From the NCBI GenBank assembly GCA_015075325.1, contig JABTUP010000003.1, positions 62,001 to 126,000 of the forward strand: a stretch of 64,000 nucleotides of DNA, in the 5' to 3' direction. A program made the translations under genes and the position numbers. This DNA comes from Flavobacteriales bacterium (lineage in GTDB: Bacteria > Bacteroidota > Bacteroidia > Flavobacteriales_E > Vicingaceae). The notes under the pieces were generated by a model. It was given only the letters and a program-made list of their open reading frames with translations. It was not told where the DNA came from and did no database searches. Of the stretch, positions 6,174 through 47,081 are shown one piece after another. Position 1 is the stretch's first letter. The number at the start of each line of letters is the position of its first letter.

Positions 6174-8051
6174 TTAGTAAACTATCTTTAATTGGTAGTT
6201 ATCAAATTTTACAATTCTTGTGTAAGTGTTCTCATAGCCGCTTTCTACTCCTGTTTTAAAGAAACTAAATTGGGTAGAAATTCTTTTATTTGAATTAGTA
6301 TCGTTAGAAAAAACTCTTCCAGTTTTAATAAAATTTGTTCCAAAATAAGAAGCGACATCAAATCCTAAAAAAGCGTTATTTGTAGGGTATGTTTCTGTTT
6401 TTTCGTAATATTTCTTTATCATCACTTTGGTTGTCTCATCTTCATAATCAACAAACTGAGCTACAGGCAAATGAACATTTAAGCGTTGAAAATATTCTAT
6501 GTCTATATTTTCAAACTGCATCCATTCTTCAATTCCAATAAGTGTTACAACACATTCGTTATATTCTTTGCTATTTAATTTTGTTATTAATGCTGTAAAT
6601 AAATTGGTAATAAAGGTAGAATTTGTTGTTGGTAAAAAAATAACATTGTTAACATTTGGCTTCAATTGAAGAAGGATATCATCGCTTTTTGCAACCACAA
6701 CTTTTTTTATTGGAGAATACCGCGAAGTATCATTTTTTCGAAGTATTGCTGCATTATATTCTTTAATGTAAGTATCTACCAATGCACTTTCCTGATTGTT
6801 TTGATATTGTACAGCTAAAAGATTTTCTCTGCTAAAACTATCAGTAACCAATCTAACAATTTGATTAACAGCAGATGTTCTTGAGGAAACTATTTTAAAC
6901 ACATTTTCATTTCCTAACAGGGCTTTATTGGTTAATTTAACTGGAGAAACTATAGGAATATTATGTTGTCCAGCAAATTTCGCGGTTTTTTCGAAATTAC
7001 TAGCATACAATGGTCCAATTATTAAATCCATTGTTTTTAGTACTGGGTTTGATAATATTTTAAAAGTAGTAAGTGAATCTTGGCCTTTGGTGTCATAAAC
7101 AAATACTTCAAACTTTTTTTCGGGGGTTGAAATAGAATCTAAGGCAACTAAAAAACCTTGATAAAATTCAACTGCAAAAGTTGAACGAGGATAAATCTTT
7201 TTCTTTTCCAATGGATTTACTGGAATTTCTTGATTTTCTTCCAAGTAAAAAGGTAAAAGCAATGCTATTTTATAAACTCCTTTTTTAGTGTTGTTTACAA
7301 CATTTTCAACATTTTTTTGAATTGTTTCTAAATTGGCATTTATTTGAATAGGCGATTTTGTTGGTTTAATTAAATTAGGTGAAACAACTATTGGTAAAAA
7401 TAATTGTTGATCAACTTTCAACCCTTCTACAAGTCCGTTATTTACCAATTTAATCGAATCTATTGAAACTTTATACAATTTACTAAGCGAATACAATGTT
7501 TCTCCAGCTTTAACTATGTGGGTTTGGTATGTTGGAGTAGGTTTCGCTTGTTCTTCACTTGGTTTTTGTTGCTTAATTTCTCTTACAGGAATTTTTATTT
7601 CTTGTCCTTCTTTTATACCTGTTTCGTCAATTTCAGGGTTTAGGGCAATAATATCTTTTTGTTGTAAATTAAACTCCTTGGCTAGAGAATATAGTGTTCT
7701 TCCTTTTTCTACTTTGTGAATGAAAAAATTTCCATTTATTGATTCAAATTCTCTGGTTGCATCTTTCTTTACTGGAATAAAAATTTTTTCTCCTAAACTC
7801 AATCCATCATTTACAGAAGCATTTTCTTTTTCAATAACATCAACAGGTACATTGTATTTTTTTGAAATAGAATAAAGTGTGTTTCCTGGCTCTACAACAT
7901 GTATGTAATAACTATTACCATTAATTTGATGTACTTCCAACGAATCTGTTTGAGCAAAAGCCCCACCCCGACCCTCACCGAAAGGGAGTGAAAGCCAACA
8001 CACAAGACTAAGACAGTAAATTTTGATTCGTAATGATGATTTTGTTTTCAT
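6174..8051 (-). CDS. Secreted LysM protein with periplasmic-binding-protein-like domain
   Basis: A 625-residue protein. Three LysM peptidoglycan-binding modules are visible at about residues 48-92 (HVVEPGNTLYSISKKYNV), 110-152 (HKVEKGRTLYSLAKEFNL) and 177-221 (HIVKAGETLYSLSKLYKV). From about residue 255 the sequence resembles a type I periplasmic binding fold (VYKIALLLPFYLEENQ, AVEFYQGFLVALDS, DLIIGPLYASNFEK), as in amino-acid-receptor or LpoA-like proteins. A cell-wall-associated periplasmic role is likely. The signal peptide contains an unusual in-frame insert, SLPFGEGRGGA, just before the cleavage site (AFAQ). It is encoded by a palindromic interspersed repeat. The ligand is unknown. Confidence 0.85.
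   Translation of the reverse strand: MKTKSSLRIKIYCLSLVCWLSLPFGEGRGGAFAQTDSLEVHQINGNSYYIHVVEPGNTLYSISKKYNVPVDVIEKENASVNDGLSLGEKIFIPVKKDATREFESINGNFFIHKVEKGRTLYSLAKEFNLQQKDIIALNPEIDETGIKEGQEIKIPVREIKQQKPSEEQAKPTPTYQTHIVKAGETLYSLSKLYKVSIDSIKLVNNGLVEGLKVDQQLFLPIVVSPNLIKPTKSPIQINANLETIQKNVENVVNNTKKGVYKIALLLPFYLEENQEIPVNPLEKKKIYPRSTFAVEFYQGFLVALDSISTPEKKFEVFVYDTKGQDSLTTFKILSNPVLKTMDLIIGPLYASNFEKTAKFAGQHNIPIVSPVKLTNKALLGNENVFKIVSSRTSAVNQIVRLVTDSFSRENLLAVQYQNNQESALVDTYIKEYNAAILRKNDTSRYSPIKKVVVAKSDDILLQLKPNVNNVIFLPTTNSTFITNLFTALITKLNSKEYNECVVTLIGIEEWMQFENIDIEYFQRLNVHLPVAQFVDYEDETTKVMIKKYYEKTETYPTNNAFLGFDVASYFGTNFIKTGRVFSNDTNSNKRISTQFSFFKTGVESGYENTYTRIVKFDNYQLKIVY
7962..7992. repeat. Palindromic repeat inserted in a signal-peptide coding sequence
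   Basis: On the minus strand the sequence reads CTCCCTTTCGGTGAGGG then TCGGGGTGGGGC, matching the pattern CTCC-TTCGG-GAGGG-C-GGGGTGAG seen at 43043-43070. It adds SLPFGEGRGGA in frame to the signal peptide of the LysM protein. It is GC-rich compared with its AT-rich surroundings. Confidence 0.7.
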
Positions 8052-37052: not shown

Positions 37053-39887
37053 ATGGAAAAATTCCTCTCCATTGTTAGCATTCTATTACTTACTATTAGT
37101 TTAAATGCACAAGAAAATTTTAAACAAAGAATGTCTCCAAATGGGATATTTGATGAAGTATTTGATAGATTTGGAAATAAATATTCGCTTGAAGACCTGA
37201 AAATTGATACTGGATTAGACAGTAACAAAGTACAGAAATCTGCATTGTTATGTAGTAGTGGATATTTTGATATTTATTTTGAAGCAGGATCAGGAATGGA
37301 AGGTTCTTCACCTGTTGAAGTTGCACGTAGAAATGTGGTCTGTCAGGTTTTTTCAGATATTTCTGATTTCATCAATTCTCCATTATCCAATGTTGGAAAT
37401 ACGAATAGAGTAAATATTGAGGTAAGAGATATTAGTCAATTTATTTCTTCTCCGTCAACTAGCGGTGTTTTAGGTGCTGCAACATCTTATTATAATGTTC
37501 CTTATAATACCACTTCTGGTTTTGGGGGAATTGCTGATAATGAAATCTGGAAAACGATTCATAGTGGCATAGATTCATATACCAATGTTACAACACCCAT
37601 CTTTCCTGCAGGAACCTCTTTTTATCATGGGATGATGTATATTAATTTTAGTAACTCAGGCTTCAGCTGGAATACAGATCTTTCATTAGCTTCATCACCT
37701 ACTGGTTTAGTTGATTTATATACTGTTGTTCTTCATGAAGTAACTCATGCTTTAGGTTTTGCTTCATTAATTGACGAGAATGGGTTATCAAAATTCGGTA
37801 CAGGATATAATTATTTCTCGAGGTATGATTTGTTTCTAAAAGATCATACAGGCACAGACAATTTGATTACAAATACAGGATCCTGTTCGCTATACAATTA
37901 TCAATATAACCCTCTACTTTCCCTTACTGAAATCAATCCTGGGGGATGTTCAGGTTCTGGATCTTTAGATAATACCGTTTGTAATGATGCTGCTATTTAT
38001 TCAGGGTCAACGGTTGTTCCTCTTTATACACCTAATTGTTTTGAACCACCTAGTAGCTTAAGTCATTTTGAAGATGAATGTTACCCAACTAGTGGATTAC
38101 CTTATGGAAATAATTTATATTTTAATATGAGTAATGCACTTGGGACAGGAGCTGTCTATACAAAAAGATATTTAAAACCCGAAGAAATGCTAGTGTTGTG
38201 TGATTTGGGTTATAGTACTAATGCTACATTTGGATCAGTAACTAATAATAATTATTTTAATTATAGCACTAGTACCTGTTCGGGAATAGATGTGGCGGGC
38301 ATTAATGATGGTATTAGTAGTACAGGATCTTATCAGTTTATTGGAACTGTTTCTAACAATATTACTATTTCAGGTCTATTATCCAATGATTATAACGCCA
38401 CCTCATTTGAATGCTTGGAGGATGTTTTTGATCCTTCTGCTTCACTATCTGTTACCTCTGGTACTAGTTCTACAAATATTAATTTTAACAGCAGTGTACA
38501 AGGAGTACATTTACTTCGTTACATTCCTGTTTATAGTGGACAAAGAGGAAACATTACTTATATATATGTGTATGTTGGCGTGTCTGCTTGCTCTCCTTCA
38601 GCCTGTAATATGATTTCTAATGGCGATTTTGAAACATTAACTACCTCTGGTGATTTTCCCTCAGCTCCTAGTCAAATAGTTAAAAGCTGTGGGTGGAATA
38701 ATGCTAATAATGCTACATCTGATTTTTATCATTCAAGTGCTACAAATCTTAATTTTTCTGTACCATGTAGTTCTAACGGGTTTGAACCTGATAATAAAAA
38801 TTTAAATGCTTATGCAGGATTTGCATTTGCTGGTAAACAAGGTTATAATGAATGTATATATTCTGAATTAAGCACTCCACTTTTACCTAATACCACTTAT
38901 AAATTAACTTTTGATGTTTCTTTACAAGAAGCATATAGTGGAAATGATTTCCCACTACAGGTTTATTTTGAACAAAATTATACTCCCACTGCAGGAATTA
39001 CTGTACCTATTTCAAATACAAACATGTTATTTACGGTTTCACCTGTAAATGATTATAATGGTTGGACCAACAGAACAATTACCTTTACAACAGGGTCAAC
39101 TGCTGGTGAAAATTTTATAATTATAGCTCTTCAATCTTCTGTTACTCCAAATGTACTTACTCCCGCACCTTTAAATGTAGGAGGATGTTCATTGTATAAT
39201 ATTAATCCTTTTGTAATAGATCCTATCAATAAAATATCTTTTAGTTTTATTGACAACCTAGTTTTATTACCTGAAAATGAATATAATGGAACTTTATCGT
39301 TATCTACTAGCGTATGTCAGGTGTTGCCAGACCTGTCTTTATATGCTAACCCTCCTGGGGGAGTATTTTCAGGAAATGGAGTTACACTAAATGCGGGTAT
39401 ATATAGTTTTGACCCTGCTATAGCTGGAGTTGGATATCATAGTATTACTTATACATACACATCAAGTTTAGGATGTGTGTATGATATAACAACTATTATT
39501 GAAGTAGTTAATTCAACTATAAATTTGTCTATATCCCCAATATCCCCAACAATATGCTCAGGGCAATCCGCTACATTAACTGCTAGTGGAGCAGATACTT
39601 ACATTTGGAGTCCTGCCACAGGTTTAAGCAGCACTACTGGTGCTGTGGTAACTGCAAACCCAACCACCACCACCACATACACTGTAACTGGAACTGATAT
39701 TAACGGATGTTCAAACACGTCTAATGTTACTGTAACTGTTGACCAAAATTGTGGGACAATCGACTGCACCCTACCCACAACCACACCTCCCCAATGGAGC
39801 AACCTCTTCTACCTATTCATTCACCTAGTGGCATGGTGGGTAGAAGTACAAGGGTTTGTTTACCATCAACAGCAGTGCTGTTTATAA
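37053..39887 (+). CDS. T9SS-type secreted protein with metalloprotease-like HExxH domain, 3' end frame-broken
   Basis: The open frame encodes 944 residues. The signal peptide ends at SLNAQ (about residue 20). A zincin motif HEVTHALGF lies at residues 228-236, followed by SRYDLFLKDHTGTDN. The rest is beta-sandwich-like, with a segment starting NMISNGDFETL near residue 523 and a PKD-like domain near the end (ICSGQSATLTASGADTYIWSPATGL). The last 40 residues are out of frame: from 39786 the DNA is homologous to the repeat starting at 43589, read here in the wrong phase. The intact gene probably ran to 43299, about 2080 codons, with the sorting domain there. Protease activity is plausible but unproved. 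Confidence 0.75.
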   Translation: MEKFLSIVSILLLTISLNAQENFKQRMSPNGIFDEVFDRFGNKYSLEDLKIDTGLDSNKVQKSALLCSSGYFDIYFEAGSGMEGSSPVEVARRNVVCQVFSDISDFINSPLSNVGNTNRVNIEVRDISQFISSPSTSGVLGAATSYYNVPYNTTSGFGGIADNEIWKTIHSGIDSYTNVTTPIFPAGTSFYHGMMYINFSNSGFSWNTDLSLASSPTGLVDLYTVVLHEVTHALGFASLIDENGLSKFGTGYNYFSRYDLFLKDHTGTDNLITNTGSCSLYNYQYNPLLSLTEINPGGCSGSGSLDNTVCNDAAIYSGSTVVPLYTPNCFEPPSSLSHFEDECYPTSGLPYGNNLYFNMSNALGTGAVYTKRYLKPEEMLVLCDLGYSTNATFGSVTNNNYFNYSTSTCSGIDVAGINDGISSTGSYQFIGTVSNNITISGLLSNDYNATSFECLEDVFDPSASLSVTSGTSSTNINFNSSVQGVHLLRYIPVYSGQRGNITYIYVYVGVSACSPSACNMISNGDFETLTTSGDFPSAPSQIVKSCGWNNANNATSDFYHSSATNLNFSVPCSSNGFEPDNKNLNAYAGFAFAGKQGYNECIYSELSTPLLPNTTYKLTFDVSLQEAYSGNDFPLQVYFEQNYTPTAGITVPISNTNMLFTVSPVNDYNGWTNRTITFTTGSTAGENFIIIALQSSVTPNVLTPAPLNVGGCSLYNINPFVIDPINKISFSFIDNLVLLPENEYNGTLSLSTSVCQVLPDLSLYANPPGGVFSGNGVTLNAGIYSFDPAIAGVGYHSITYTYTSSLGCVYDITTIIEVVNSTINLSISPISPTICSGQSATLTASGADTYIWSPATGLSSTTGAVVTANPTTTTTYTVTGTDINGCSNTSNVTVTVDQNCGTIDCTLPTTTPPQWSNLFYLFIHLVAWWVEVQGFVYHQQQCCL

Positions 39888-42800
39888 CAATGTTAAATTT
39901 AAAATGGCTGCCGGTGCAAGGATAGATGTTGTTTCGGGCAACACCTTAACACTTCGTAAATGTCACTTGTTTTCCTGTACCAATTGTGGAAGGAAATTAC
40001 CGTAAACCCTAATGCTAATTTGGTGGTGCAAAACTACACCATTATTGAAGATGCCGAACAAGCCATTCATTGGATGGATGGCGGTGCTGTTGTTATCAAC
40101 AGTTCTATTTTTAACCGCAACGGGGCTGGTGTACATTTAGAAACCAATTTTTATAATATTAAAGCAACTAAACGTGGTGAAGCAACACCATTTTTACGTG
40201 TAGAGATTTTCCTGCTTCGTTTTATCAAACCAATTTTACGGCTGGCTCTTTTGCTTCGCTGAAAAATGATTTGTTTAACAACAATTTAAGTTTATACCCT
40301 TACGGTAGCTTAATTGCTCCTGCTCCTGCCAACACCCGTAGTTTGTATGGCATTAAAACCAAAGGCTTGGAGGCTACCATTGGCACTAGTGGTTTACTAA
40401 AAAATAGAAATTTGTTCGATTACCTCGATTTTGGTATTCATGCTTCACAAAATGCTAACCTTACTGCGGTAAACAATGCTTTTGCTAATTTATCGGGTTA
40501 TGGCATTAAAAGCACCATCATTGGCGTTGGTATTTTTGCTGAGAAAAAGGACCTTCATTAACATTGGTGGTAACAACACCAAAGACGGTAATTATTTCAA
40601 AACTGTTACCGTGGTTATAACATTACCGATTACAATACCATTAATTTTATTAACAACTCCATTACTAATACAAGCACTTCTACTGGGTTTACTCCTCCTT
40701 TGTTTCATATTGGCATTACGGGTTGGCAATAAATTTTCAACTGCAATACAAAATTCTAACATACACTTAAATTACAACATCCATAAAACAACATCAGCAA
40801 CAATGCTATTGGCGTTTACATCAATAGTGTTTACAGCTCTATTGTTAGCCAAAACATACAACTTACGCAAAATAATTTAGATCATTACTGGTATTGGCAC
40901 TTACTGTAATCAAGGTATTTGGATGCAGAGTTTATCGGGTAGCACCGCAAATGTTGGTGATGTGTTTGTTTCGAAAGCAATACCGTAAAGGCAGCAATGT
41001 ATTGCAAACCTTGTTGTTTGAAAATGTAAACAATATGCTTCGGGTGGACTTAAACCCTGAATTATCTGTGCTTGAACAAACAACTCTCCAAGTAAACAAA
41101 CCATTCGATTAAATTCGTGTAATGGGCTATGATTACGAACAACTTTGTTGCTACCGCCAACAATACCGTTATCCCTTCGGGCAATTTAGGTGGTTCCATA
41201 ACAGGTATTTATTTAAACAATTCGCCATCGTGCATCATAAGCCTTAATCCAGCCAACTATTTAGATGTGTGTGTTGTTTGACCAACCCAACAGCATGGCT
41301 TATTTTGCCAACAATACCATGAACAAAGCTCAGTATGGTTTAGTGTTGGCTAATGGTGCTATTATTAAGCAGCAGGAGATGACCCACACCCCTCTGGCAA
41401 CCAGTGGGGCGTAACGACATCAACAACATTACACTAAACCATGCTTATACCTACTTAACTCCAAATGCCATCCAACTCTCCCTCTACAAAACCCAATGCA
41501 ATACCCAATTGTACTGCGGAGGGTGAAAACTTTTCCGTGTAGTAATGGCGGAACAGTTTTTAGTCAAACATATCAAATAAGTCTTGGTGGTTTAAATAAT
41601 GCCACCGGTTCAAGTCCGGGTTGTACAGCCCGACCGGCAACCCTTTAGCTAATGCACGGGCTTTGCTGTTTGAAGCAGATGGCGGAAACAGTAATGCGGT
41701 GGACAAGTTTTGAAAAAACGACAGGCTTTCCGTTTAATAAAACCGATACCACAGGCGTATTAATGGCAGATAGCAGAGTTAAACACGTTTTATAACCAAG
41801 AGCAAACCCAAAGCATTTTAAACTAAGCACCACCAACGAATTGATTGGCAACAACAACCTTGTTACGGCACAGCACCAACAGCAGCATAATTCCAACTAA
41901 CGTGGCAGAACACAACACCAAAGCGGTAAAACAGAAATTTGGCTGCAAAGCATGTTAATGAACACCGCTTATGTGTTAACCACTGCCGACAGCTCCCCTC
42001 TACACCATTGGTAACATTTGCATACAGCAATGGGAGATGCTACGGTGCTGGCTCGTAGTCTGCTGACTAATTTTACACAAACAGCCGCACACCTTTAACG
42101 ATTGTTTTGGAACTGCCTTTTGCCGGTGCGAATACAGAACAGCTAACCAAAAAACGGCTCAACCAACCTGATTTTAAATGGAAAGTTGAGGAGGTTGATA
42201 CAACTATAGCATCAACCAACCAATATCTCAGTTCAGCCACACCTTGGCAAATGCCAGAATTTGGTTCTCCTGATGTTTTTTATTCAATTTTCTAGTAGTG
42301 ATCTATGTCAAATACTGGTCATCAATCTGCTCAACATGGTTTAAGATATGCAGGAAGTTATTACTTTTTCATAACCCAGTACCTCCTTACCAATTTAGAG
42401 AGCCTATAATTGGTAAAACTAGTGTTACTTTAAATTCAGGAGTGCAATATTGTTTGTCGTATTACATTTCGTTAGCAGACACCTTTAACTGTGCAGTCAA
42501 CCGTAGTGATGCCTATTTTTCTCCTACCCCTATGGACCCTACCTTGGGGACACCTCCTTATTTGCAATACGTTCAACCCCACGTAATGGCAGACAGTACC
42601 GTTTTTTATACCGACAAAGAAAATTGGATGCGTATTGAAGGCAGTTATACTTCATCAGGGGGCGAAAACTACATTACCATTGGTAATTTACACCAAGATA
42701 ATCAAACCGATACCTTGTGTAACGGTTCTATGGCATCAGTTGGCTACCCAAACAATAGGGATGCTTATTACTACATGGATAACTTTAGTTTAGAAGAGGT

Positions 42801-43039
42801 AACACCAGTAGATGCTGGAGCAGATACCAGCATTACCAATGGAGACGCAGTAATGATTGGTAATAATTTAGATTCGGCAAGTAGCTACAGTTGGTTGCCC
42901 AATTATTTTATTGATGATGTAAACACGCTTAACCCAACGGTTAACCCTCCTGTAACCACTACCTATTATGTTACCAAAACCCAATGTAGTGTAGTAACAA
43001 TCGATAGTGTTACCGTGTTTGTTGGTGGTGTGGGTATTG
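39786..43039 (+). repeat. Large direct duplication, copy A
   Basis: About 3.25 kb, homologous to 43589-46813 in the same orientation. Homology starts at CTCCCCAATGGAGCAACCTC and ends at GGTGGTGTGGG, where each copy then enters a different palindromic element. Confidence 0.85.
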
Positions 43040-43042
43040 CCA

Positions 43043-43070
43043 CCTCTCCTTCGGAGAGGGCTGGGGTGAG
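43043..43070. repeat. Palindromic interspersed repeat in coding sequence
   Basis: CCTCTCC TTC GGAGAGG (43043-43059) plus GCTGGGGTGAG. It encodes TSPSERAGVR between the passenger and the sorting domain of copy A. It marks the point where copies A and B stop being similar. Confidence 0.7.
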
Positions 43071-43306
43071 AATATATCCTAATCCTACAAGCGGAGAACT
43101 AACTATAGAACTACTTAACCAAAACAACGATTGGCTTACCACCATTTTAGATACACAGGGAAGAACAGTAGCAGAAAAATCGTTTACAGGCACTATAATT
43201 AACTTAAAACTGGAATTAGAAAATGGCGTGTATTTGGTGCGAGTAACCAACCAAAACACCAACGAAATGGTAATTAAAAAATTAATTGTGCAACATTAAA
43301 AGAAGT

Positions 43307-43446
43307 GTCATTCTGAACAAAATTTGTTCCACGCTTTAGCGAGGAAAACAAATGCAGTGAAGAATCTTTTTGTTATAAAGTTAAAGATTCTTCACTTCGG
43401 TTTCTAATGAAAATAAATTTTCAAGAAAACCATCGTTCAGAATGAC
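43307..43446. repeat. MITE-like inverted-repeat element
   Basis: Outer arms GTCATTCTGAAC (43307-43318) and GTTCAGAATGAC (43435-43446) enclose inner arms AGTGAAGAATCTTT (43356-43369) and AAAGATTCTTCACT (43383-43396). The 140-bp element fills the gap between the two secreted-protein genes and has no coding capacity. Confidence 0.75.
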
Positions 43447-43463
43447 CTTAAAAACACATCCAC

Positions 43464-43685
43464 ATGAAAAAAACACTACTATACCTTACTTTATTGTTGT
43501 TTACCATTGGTTTAAAAGCAACAACCGAAGCTTCTGCCCCATCTCCTTCGGAGTCCCGATATTTATCGGGAGGGGTGAGGCTCATCACCCTCCCCAATGG
43601 AGCAACCTCTGCTACATTCATCCCTAACGGCTCTGTTGCAGAAGTACAAGGCTTGTTTACCATCAACAGCAGTGCTGTTCGATAA
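43464..43685 (+). pseudogene. 5' fragment of the copy B gene, signal peptide and frameshift
   Basis: An ATG at 43464 opens a signal peptide (MKKTLLYLTLLLFTIGLKA) followed by a repeat-derived insert (SPSESRYLSGGVR) and then LPNGATSATFIPNGSVAEVQGLFTINSSAV, where the frame is lost. The downstream frame resumes before 43764. At least two small indels between 43675 and 43760 separate this start from the long ORF. Together the two parts would be one gene of about 1200 codons. Confidence 0.7.
43541..43580. repeat. Palindromic repeat carrying a nested second palindrome
   Basis: ATCTCCTTCGGAG is followed by TCCCGATATTTATCGGGA (43554-43571) and then GGGGTGAGG. The outer parts match the element at 43043-43070; the inner 18-bp palindrome matches the one at 35034-35051. 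It reads as one repeat inserted into another. Confidence 0.65.
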
Positions 43686-46600
43686 CAAAATTAAATTTAA
43701 AATGGCTGCGGTTGCAAGGATAGATGTTGTTTTTGGCAGCTTGTAACACTTCGTAAATGCCATTTGTTTTCATGCACTCAATTGTGGAAAGAAATTACGG
43801 TTAATCCTAATGCTAATTTAGTGGTGCAGAACTACACCATTATTGAAGATGCCGAACAAGCCATTCATTGGATCGATGGCGGTGCTGTTATTATCAACAG
43901 TTCTATTTTTAACCGCAACGGGGCTGGAGTACATTTAGCAACCAATTTTTCTAATACCGTAGCAACAAATGTGGTGGTAACCAACACCATTTTTACGTGT
44001 AGAGATTTTCCTGCTTCGTTTTATCAAACCTCTTTTTCGGCTGGCTCTTTTGCTTCGCTGAAAAACAATTTGTTTAACAACAATTTAATTTTATATCCTT
44101 ACGGTAGCTTAATTGCTCCTGCTCCTGCCAACACCCGTAGTTTATATGGTGTTAAAACCAAAGGTTTGGAAGCTACCATTGGCTCTAGTGGTTTACTTAA
44201 AAACAGAAACTTGTTCGATTATTTAGATTTTGGTATTCATGCTTCGCAAAATGCTAATCTAACGGCGGTAAACAATGCTTTTGCTAATTTATCGGGTTAT
44301 GGTATTAAAAGCACCATCATTGGGGTGGGTATTTTTGCTGAAAAAAAAGGAACCTTCATTACTATTGGCGGTAACAACACCAAAGACGGTAATTCTTTCA
44401 AAAACTGTTATCGTGGTGCTAACATTACCGATTACAACACCATTAATTTTATTAACAACTCCATTACTAATACAAGCACGTCTCCAACATTTTCTCCTCC
44501 AACATACAACATTGGGCATTACGGATTGGCAATTTTTTCAACTGCTATGCAATATTCAAACATTCACTTAAATTACAACATCCATAAAAATAACATCAGC
44601 AATAATGCTATTGGCGTTTACATCAATAGTATTTACAGCTCTATTGTTAGCCAGAACATACAACTCACGCAAAACAATTTAGATGTTTCTGGTAGTGGTA
44701 CTTACTGTAATCAAGGTGTTTGGATGCAGAGTTTATCGGGTAGCACAGCAAATGTTGGTGATGTGTTTGTTTCGGGTAATACCGTAAAAGGCAGTAACAT
44801 GCAAGCTTTGTTGTTTGAGAATGTAAACAACATGCTGCGAGTGGACTTAAACCCTGAATTATCTGTACTGAACAACACCTCACCAAGCAAACAAGCCATT
44901 CGTTTAAATTCGTGTAATGGGGCTATGGTTACCAACAACACCGTTGCTACCACGAACAACACCAGTATTCCTTCGGGCAATTTAGGTGGTTTTATTACGG
45001 GTATTTATTTAAACAATTCTCCTTCGTGCATCGTAACATGCAATACCGCCAACTATTTAGATGTGTGCGTATTGTTTGACCAACCCAACAGCATGGCTTA
45101 TTTTGCCAACAACTCCATGAACAAAGCTCAGTATGGTTTGGTGTTGGCTAATGGTGCTATTATTGGGCAGCAGGGAGATGCCACACACCCCTCTGGCAAC
45201 CAGTGGGGGCGTAACGACATCAACAACATTACACTAAACCATACTTATACCTACTTAACTCCAAATGCCAATACCAACTCTCCCCTCTATTGCAAACCCA
45301 ATGCAATACCCAATTGTACTGCCGGAGGGGTGAAAACTTTTCCGTGTAGTAATGGCGGAACAGTTTTTAGTCAAGCATATCAAATAAGTCTTGGTGGTTT
45401 AAATACTGCTACCGGTTCAAGTCCGGGTTGTACAGCCCGACCCGGCAACCCTTTAGCTAATGCACGGGCTTTGCTGCACGAAGCAGATAGCGGAAACGGT
45501 AATGCGGTGGACAAGTTTTTGAAAAAACGACAGGCTTTCCGTTTAATAAAAACCGATACCACAGGCGTATTAATGGCAGATAGCGAGTTAAACACGTTTT
45601 ATAACCAAGAGCAAACCCAAAGCATTGGTAAACTAAGCACCACCAACGAATTGATTGGCAACAACAACCTTGTTACGGCACAAAGCACCAACAGCAGCAT
45701 AATTCCAACTAACGTGGCAGAACACAACACCAAAGCGGTAAACGAAATTTGGCTGCAAAGCATGTTAGACACCGCTTATGTGTTAACCACTGCCGACAGC
45801 TCCACCCTCTACACCATTGGTAACATTTGCATACAGCAAGGGGGAGATGCTACGGTGCTGGCTCGTAGTCTGCTGACTAATTTTACACAAACAGCCCTTA
45901 CCTTTAACGATTGTTTGGAACTGCCTTTTGCTGGAAACGAAAACAGAATGGCTAATCAGAAAAATGGTTCAACCAACCTTATTTTGAATGGTAGTTTAGA
46001 GGATGGTGTGAATTATTATCCACCTGAACCTTGGTTAAGCCCCCAGTATGGTGATCCTGACTTATTTCCAAATATAAATATCCAAACAGGACCACAAACC
46101 CCTAAACATGGTTTAAGATTTGTTGGTGGTTTCTATTTTATGAACAACATTCCAGCACCAACACCTCCCGCATATACTAGAGAACCAGTTATAGCTAAAA
46201 CTAGTGTCACCTTAAATTCAGGAATGCAATATTGTTTATCGTATTACATTTCATTGGCTGATACCTATAATTGTGCTGTCAACAGAAGTGATGCTTATTT
46301 TTCTCCTACTCCTATGGACCCTACCTTGGGGACGCCTCCTTATTTGCAATACGTACAACCCCATGTGATGGCGGATAGCACCGTTTTTTATACCGATAAG
46401 GAAAATTGGACAAAAATTGAAGGTTGTTACATCGCTTCTGGTGGCGAAAATTACATTACCTTTGGTAATTTGCATTTGGATAATGAAACTGATACGTTAT
46501 GTAGTGGAGTAATACCAGGTTATCCCGATTATAAAGGAGCCTACTACTACATGGACAACTTTAGCTTAGAAGAGATAACACCGGTAGATGCAGGAGCAGA

Positions 46601-46813
46601 TGTGAGTATTGCTAATGGCGATAGCGTAATTATTGGTAATAATTTAGATTCAGCAAGTAGTTATGTGTGGTCGCCTAATTATTTTATTGATGATGTTAAT
46701 GCTCTTAATCCAACCGTTAACCCACCTGTAACCACCACTTATTATGTTACCAAAACACAATGTAGTGTGGTAACCACCGATAGTGTTACGGTGGTTGTTG
46801 GTGGTGTGGGCAT
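43589..46813 (+). repeat. Large direct duplication, copy B
   Basis: Homologous to 39786-43039. Apart from the first 170 bp it keeps an open frame. Homology ends at GGTGGTGTGGGCAT, just before a palindrome (46827-46839). Confidence 0.85.
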
Positions 46814-47081
46814 AGAAGCCCCTAAATCCCCGAAGGGGACTTTTAGTATTTATCCTAATCCAAACAACGGAACTTTTACGATTAAGCACAACTTAAAAAA
46901 TGAAAATTACGCCTTAGAAATTGTTGATATAATGGGTAAAGTAGTACACCGTGAAACTTTAAAATCAGGAAATCAGCAAGAAATTAAAACTCAATGGCTA
47001 AACACAGGAATTTATTTTGTAAACATTAAATCAGAAACAGGCGAGTTGGTGTATTCGAGTAAAATGAGTGTAATGAAATAA
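43764..47081 (+). CDS. Large T9SS-exported protein with beta-helix-like region, main part of copy B
   Basis: The long frame gives 1105 residues. Its nominal TTG start is not the real one; the signal peptide lies at 43464, in another frame. Residues about 10-440 are rich in asparagine-turn repeats typical of a right-handed beta-helix (YTIIEDAEQAIHWIDGGAVIINSSIFNRNGAGVHL, NNTVATTNNTSIPSGNLGGFITGIYLNNSPS). A carbohydrate-binding-like beta-sandwich starts near residue 735 (TNLILNGSLEDGVNYY) and runs to about 935. A type A sorting domain ends the protein (FSIYPNPNNGTFTIKHNL ... GIYFVNIKSETGELVYSSKMSVMK). It is probably a cell-surface or secreted factor; the exact role is unknown. Confidence 0.75.
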   Translation: MFSCTQLWKEITVNPNANLVVQNYTIIEDAEQAIHWIDGGAVIINSSIFNRNGAGVHLATNFSNTVATNVVVTNTIFTCRDFPASFYQTSFSAGSFASLKNNLFNNNLILYPYGSLIAPAPANTRSLYGVKTKGLEATIGSSGLLKNRNLFDYLDFGIHASQNANLTAVNNAFANLSGYGIKSTIIGVGIFAEKKGTFITIGGNNTKDGNSFKNCYRGANITDYNTINFINNSITNTSTSPTFSPPTYNIGHYGLAIFSTAMQYSNIHLNYNIHKNNISNNAIGVYINSIYSSIVSQNIQLTQNNLDVSGSGTYCNQGVWMQSLSGSTANVGDVFVSGNTVKGSNMQALLFENVNNMLRVDLNPELSVLNNTSPSKQAIRLNSCNGAMVTNNTVATTNNTSIPSGNLGGFITGIYLNNSPSCIVTCNTANYLDVCVLFDQPNSMAYFANNSMNKAQYGLVLANGAIIGQQGDATHPSGNQWGRNDINNITLNHTYTYLTPNANTNSPLYCKPNAIPNCTAGGVKTFPCSNGGTVFSQAYQISLGGLNTATGSSPGCTARPGNPLANARALLHEADSGNGNAVDKFLKKRQAFRLIKTDTTGVLMADSELNTFYNQEQTQSIGKLSTTNELIGNNNLVTAQSTNSSIIPTNVAEHNTKAVNEIWLQSMLDTAYVLTTADSSTLYTIGNICIQQGGDATVLARSLLTNFTQTALTFNDCLELPFAGNENRMANQKNGSTNLILNGSLEDGVNYYPPEPWLSPQYGDPDLFPNINIQTGPQTPKHGLRFVGGFYFMNNIPAPTPPAYTREPVIAKTSVTLNSGMQYCLSYYISLADTYNCAVNRSDAYFSPTPMDPTLGTPPYLQYVQPHVMADSTVFYTDKENWTKIEGCYIASGGENYITFGNLHLDNETDTLCSGVIPGYPDYKGAYYYMDNFSLEEITPVDAGADVSIANGDSVIIGNNLDSASSYVWSPNYFIDDVNALNPTVNPPVTTTYYVTKTQCSVVTTDSVTVVVGGVGIEAPKSPKGTFSIYPNPNNGTFTIKHNLKNENYALEIVDIMGKVVHRETLKSGNQQEIKTQWLNTGIYFVNIKSETGELVYSSKMSVMK
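46818..46839. repeat. Palindromic repeat at the passenger/sorting-domain junction of copy B
   Basis: TCCCC GAA GGGGA (46827-46839) within GCCCCTAAATCCCCGAAGGG. It encodes APKSPKGT and sits where copy A has the element at 43043-43070. Confidence 0.6.

Follow-up and report, generated by a model that had tools for sequence, protein, structure and literature searches.

Palindromes that lie exactly where the modules of secreted proteins meet raise the question of whether they are the points at which those modules are exchanged. The locus at which we address it lies in a 64-kb stretch of DNA (G000:C23:62001-126000, hereafter the window) from a 3.3-Mb Bacteroidota genome of 62 contigs, and it contains two tandem paralogues, copies A and B, which share a passenger module and end in different type A sorting domains of the type IX secretion system. 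GC-rich palindromic repeats are present in the linkers of both copies and at the left edge of copy B (43541-43580), as an earlier sequence-only reading of this DNA had described, and that reading proposed that the repeats are recombination points that shuffle passenger and sorting modules. Based on the genome-wide and comparative data presented herein, we consider it probable that the palindromes are dispersed elements resembling repetitive extragenic palindromes (REPs) that are tolerated in linkers, and that the mosaic arose by passenger duplication or by homologous recombination between the tandem paralogues. The palindromes were scored with R1, a repeat-family model with a 37-column consensus that was built from 27 palindrome copies including that of the A linker. 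The features of the locus are as follows.

37053-39785, plus strand: N-terminal part of the gene ending in copy A, a passenger with a zinc-protease-like motif, HEVTHALGF (by eye), and an Ig-like repeat; open frame 37053-39887; the only Pfam match is Ig_7, below its cut-off; 47% to relative G011
39786-43038, plus strand: passenger module P, copy A, 86% to copy B; many frame breaks to about 42298 (see the indel distribution below), open from 42298
43039-43075, plus strand: REP-like palindrome within copy A's linker, its hairpin at 43043-43059; R1 36.4 bits, E 3.2e-9 genome-wide, this copy being one of the 27 used to build the model
43072-43299, plus strand: type A sorting domain A (Pfam PF18962) and stop; closest to G012:C206 (64%), G011:C412 (60%) and G045 (49%)
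43307-43446, no strand: intergenic element between A and B with inverted ends GTCATTCTGAAC and GTTCAGAATGAC and an inner palindrome (inverted repeats I11 and I19), the palindrome type being different
43465-43536, plus strand: signal-peptide-like start of copy B, as read from the sequence
43541-43580, plus strand: composite palindrome at the left edge of B, one half REP-like, enclosing a second palindrome, TCCCGATATTTATCGGGA (43554-43571); pattern match (2 in the genome, both here), weak by R1 (10.8 bits)
43589-46813, plus strand: passenger module P, copy B, homologous to A, with a beta-helix-like part followed by a C-terminal part; Beta_helix below its cut-off
46812-46843, minus strand: REP-like palindrome within copy B's linker, its hairpin at 46827-46839, orientation opposite to that in A; weak by R1 (16.1 bits, genome-wide E 0.066); the genome has two occurrences of CCCCTAAATCCCC..GGGGAC
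46848-47081, plus strand: type A sorting domain B (Pfam PF18962) and stop; closest to G012 (61%)

At the left edge of B, the inner palindrome at 43554-43571 looks as if one palindrome had landed in another.

Two paralogues and their junctions

The homology between A (39786-43038) and B (43589-46813) comprises 3295 aligned DNA positions, 2825 of which are identical (86%). It begins in B just after the palindromic stretch and ends in both copies at the codons for GGVGI, where the match stops at the linker before two different sorting domains. This agrees with the sequence-only reading, which had described the copies as nearly the same up to that point. The description is apt for one sub-region, B 43589-45789, which is 91% identical with 188 substitutions, but that sub-region also carries 33 indel events and is followed by a stretch of 77% identity (B 45789-46189, 11 indel events) and a last part of 82% identity (B from 46189, 2 indel events including the edge). 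In this last part 78 of the 114 differences are at third codon positions; in B 45189-45789 the 20 substitutions are distributed 10, 5, and 5 over the codon positions, with no third-position excess.

Copy A had been taken for a gene of its own and proves to be the 3' part of a larger one starting at 37053, the counterpart of which in G011 is a single open frame of 1964 aa, cut by the contig end, while in G012 the corresponding region lies inside a 3001-aa frame with a different N-terminal part. The passenger of copy A is not one open frame, although the gene is open in its 5' part (37053-39785) and its 3' part (42298-43299), and copy B has a frame break between the signal peptide and 43764. The indel events of copy A (39786-42298) are limited to the part most like B and a short adjoining stretch. 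Their distribution suggests consensus error between near-repeats, and the frame breaks in part of copy A are probably due to such error or to decay.

Both C-terminal sorting domains are of type A and score above the curated cut-off for PF18962 (27 bits), at 58.7 bits for B and 47.7 bits for A. They had been called unrelated, which does not hold for two members of one family, and they are 27% identical to each other. In each copy the 11 codons between GGVGI and IYPNP include a GC-rich hairpin (A, CCTCTCCTTCGGAGAGG; B, TCCCCGAAGGGGA), which has the form CCTCTCC-TTC-GGAGAGG in A (43043-43059) and TCCCC-GAA-GGGGA in B (46827-46839). The two junction palindromes differ in sequence and have opposite orientations.

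If such repeats were recombination points, they would be expected at other junctions of the same kind, and the earlier reading had named a survey of them as a check. PF18962 occurs at 118 places in the genome, and all of these junctions were read. A GC-rich hairpin lies within 75 bp upstream of the sorting domain at four of them and in the linker proper (the last 30 bp) at two, which are copies A and B, so that no enrichment of palindromes at passenger/sorting-domain junctions was found in this genome (2 of 118 linkers, both at this locus), one of the two outcomes that the earlier reading had named as speaking against its model. The search was extended to 395 genomes of the class, this one included, with two patterns in which an A- or B-type palindrome is joined to a YPNP codon stretch; it covers these two palindrome forms only, and its genome lists do not contain G044 and G011. 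Within that scope it returned no other convincing palindrome at a sorting-domain junction. The first pattern matched five genomes, this one and four others that were judged by eye to be chance matches, since they lack the palindrome and the GGGGTGAG tail, and the second matched this genome alone.

The palindrome family and its carriers

The palindromes are a REP-like dispersed family. The hairpin pattern matches the genome 62 times and its reversed form, used as the control, six times, and R1 yields 106 matches at E 0.1 or better. These include the palindrome of the A linker, which is beyond chance, that of the B linker on the other strand, and one in a signal peptide of the window. Neighboring matches no more than 250 bp apart are arranged as divergent pairs, with 25 of 28 in the order (-,+) and none in the order (+,-). 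The spread among relatives is patchy: at E 0.001, R1 searches of 12 relatives gave 109 matches in G012, 69 in G044, and 22 in G011, and none in G001, G014, G030, and G041.

The position of the family relative to open frames was determined mechanically, with no gene caller and over some stretches that are short, a palindrome counting as inside when its frame measured 150 aa or more and left 20 aa on either side of it. By this count 85 of the 106 matches are not inside such a frame and 21 are, three of the latter being doubtful (C9:38791, whose 224-aa frame is possibly spurious, and the weak family matches C10:31789 and C11:21047). In the window itself, the signal peptide of a LysM-like protein contains an in-frame family palindrome at 7956-7990 (17.1 bits; SLPFGEGRGGA).

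Pfam names four carriers of in-frame palindromes, which are RecG, methionine synthase, methionyl-tRNA synthetase, and DNA polymerase I, and AroA, LeuRS, and SpoIIE-type proteins are putative further carriers, identified by eye. Methionine synthase has a pair of palindromes in the linker that precedes its cobalamin domain, where the solved homologue shows gaps. The palindrome of methionyl-tRNA synthetase is in a linker that is variable anyway and so is not decisive. In RecG, nothing in the solved structure 1gm5_A corresponds to residues 417-562 (the flanks align with its residues 514 and 519), and this in-frame insert of about 146 aa consists of a palindrome, a DUF559 nuclease-like domain, and a second palindrome.

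L290:613-3150 (G000:C2): RecG gene with insert; palindromes at 71596-71632 and 72007-72043

All three DUF559 matches of the genome (L288, L289, and L290) have family palindromes within about 150 bp, weak ones at two of them, and a DUF559 relative in G012 is also near palindromes (L291:655-1011). DUF559 is found in 36 plasmid records, with no Bacteroidota among the genera named. One could imagine, as a possible if unlikely course of events, that the palindromes spread together with the DUF559 domain as a mobile unit capable of landing in frame and of replacing its target rather than adding to it, in which case the palindromic type IX linkers would be scars that can seed module exchange. A REP transposase was also considered as the mover, and the three proteins read among the five Y1_Tnp matches of the genome speak against it, as each ends in NQ..HH and none is of the REP type; the other two matches are partial. 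No R1 match of E below 0.9 was found in the five Y1 loci (L188-L192).

Relatives and the origin of the mosaic

Comparison with relatives gives passenger and sorting domains different histories. In their C-terminal domains the passengers of A and B are 74% identical and those of G011 and G012 75%, with 67-71% across the two lineages and support of 96 for the split that joins A and B. In the sorting domains A is 59% identical to G011 and 62% to G012_C206, and B is 61% identical to G012. The passenger tree thus places A with B, and the sorting-domain tree places A with G011 and G012_C206, and B with G012. The earlier reading had proposed this comparison as a check on its model and had named matching phylogenies as the other outcome that would speak against it; the trees conflict, which supports separate histories in which passengers are closest within a lineage and sorting domains cross between lineages.

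The linkers of G011 and G012 are ordinary (VSELINKNNVR and ISELSNEDRVQ) and have no palindrome, and between them these relatives show the two passenger/sorting-domain pairings of A and B, the pairing in G011 being likely across a contig gap. Because the pairings occur there with ordinary linkers, both seem to predate the arrival of the palindromes, and what happened recently in the lineage studied here seems to have involved the passenger. We also considered that sorting domain A was newly switched in, which was rejected since its relatives follow related passengers in G012, in G045 and, across the contig gap, in G011. A phage origin of the passenger was likewise rejected, as a search of 50,697 phage records gave no match. 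At the locus that follows one shared upstream gene (L284, L286, and L285), the same passenger module is preceded by different N-terminal modules in G011 and G012, and its sorting domains probably differ as well.

We now put forward a mechanism for the locus. The REP-like family would sit mostly outside longer open frames and at times in frame, in linkers and signal peptides where additional or altered residues are tolerated, and the boundary between passenger and sorting domain would be one such tolerant linker in which palindromes landed. Tandem paralogues with two long-standing sorting domains would share a passenger that was recently duplicated, or homogenized by homologous recombination, in this lineage, and the substrate for recombination would be the 3.2-kb direct repeat of the passenger itself. 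Recombination between the passenger copies would remove the intervening segment and join the upstream gene to sorting domain B, and homologous recombination would also explain why one locus ends in sorting domain B in G012 and, as it seems, in A in G011. The data show the family with its copy number, pairing, and in-frame location, the conflict of the trees, and the ordinary linkers of relatives; the neutrality of the palindromes, the recombination across the passenger, and the order of events are what we infer from them.

Several observations weigh against this mechanism. The B linker palindrome is a weak match to the family (reverse strand, 16.1 bits, E 0.066). Two palindromes in 118 linkers exceed the 0.14 expected for a uniform spread of 106 elements over 36-nt linkers; assuming independence, the probability of two or more is 0.008 and that of one or more is 0.13, and A and B, as neighbors and paralogues, may not be independent. 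Insertion of an element of about 30 nt should give linkers about twice as long, and the A and B linkers are not, being 11 aa each where the mode is 10 (at the 67 of 118 junctions where length could be measured). The palindromes replace the linker rather than lengthen it, so either the element displaced the original linker on arrival or the length was restored afterwards. Three palindromes at three module edges within 3.8 kb also contrast with the average density of the family, 106 matches over 3.3 Mb or one in about 31 kb. Finally, the passenger and the sorting domain in G011 are on two contigs and their pairing is inferred, the second contig beginning in the end of a passenger-like domain and running into the same downstream gene as in G012. 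The equal linker length and the clustering of three palindromes leave a low probability that the palindromes had a causal role.

Such a role was the essence of the earlier proposal, in which passenger and sorting modules would be shuffled at the palindromes; cruciform breakage or short homology could bring this about. The homology edges coincide with palindromes on the right in both copies and on the left in B, and two plus-strand palindromes flank the segment of sorting domain A, spacer, and signal peptide of B as direct repeats of a type found nowhere else in the genome; the conflicting trees and the replaced linkers also fit. The right edge, however, is bound to fall at the linker in any case, given two different sorting domains, and the junction palindromes of A and B, being different in sequence and orientation, cannot pair as direct repeats. 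With 2 of 118 junctions affected, no convincing case elsewhere by the two patterns, and relatives that have the same pairings and no palindromes, the proposal is not supported, and we regard it as unlikely. A mixed consensus of the near-identical passenger copies, with joins to the sorting domains and signal peptide that are partly wrong, has in our view only a slim chance of accounting for the locus: the 33 indel events in the high-identity part (B 43589-45789) against two in the more diverged last part, and the 20 substitutions of B 45189-45789, are what it would produce, but the palindromes are in unique flanking sequence, both passenger-to-sorting-domain joins resemble those of relatives, and the surrounding genes are intact. 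It is very unlikely that copy A is a decaying pseudogene in which palindromes accumulate under relaxed selection, as the many frame breaks in A and the single such region in B might suggest, given the open 5' and 3' parts of A, the predominance of third-position differences in the last part, and the palindromes in frame elsewhere in genes that look intact. Tolerated REP-like elements and passenger recombination are thus the explanation that we favor.

Comparison with known systems

REP and REPIN elements are described in PMC3733652 (Di Nocera et al. 2013) as high-copy short palindromes, often in inverted pairs and mostly outside genes. Some are in frame in genes whose products are DNA repair or tRNA enzymes, and the same source reports REPs within coding regions, with repair genes accounting for many of these. 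The family described here resembles them in its many dispersed GC-rich copies (106 by R1, and 62 versus 6 by pattern) and in its inverted pairs at short spacing. It differs from the GTAG and CGTC superfamilies in that neither tag is in the 37-column consensus, and, as far as the three Y1 proteins that were read show, from REPs with a REP-associated tyrosine transposase (RAYT), a Y1 transposase with a YIxxNP-type motif and palindromes on its flanks, in that no transposase of this type was identified beside the palindromes. The three full Y1 proteins, by their NQ..HH ending, are like subclass 1.2 in the account of PMC6006769, where this subclass is said generally to have no terminal secondary structures.

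The Rickettsia palindromic elements (RPEs), which PMC3733652 describes as palindromes in frame within apparently functional genes, offer a second parallel, as RecG and methionine synthase here have in-frame palindromes in otherwise intact proteins. That likeness is one of description, the phylum is another, and most matches here are outside long open frames. As type IX type A C-terminal domains (PF18962), those of A and B look ordinary and only the linker is unusual; among listings of the open-licence PMC literature, we recognized no paper that deals with palindromes in the linkers of type IX substrates or with DUF559 and palindromes together. A shared segment with unshared ends in neighboring genes is also what gene conversion or unequal recombination of tandem paralogues leaves, where the donor, direction, and breakpoint are not seen here.

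The comparison separates two things that look alike, the mosaicism of sorting domains in tandem type IX substrates, which is supported, and the presence of palindromes where the modules join, which looks incidental. A Bacteroidota genome with REP-like palindromes in frame in core genes is thereby added and, where a REP transposase was not found, the nuclease-like domain in frame in recG between two palindromes makes the mover of the palindromes a testable question.

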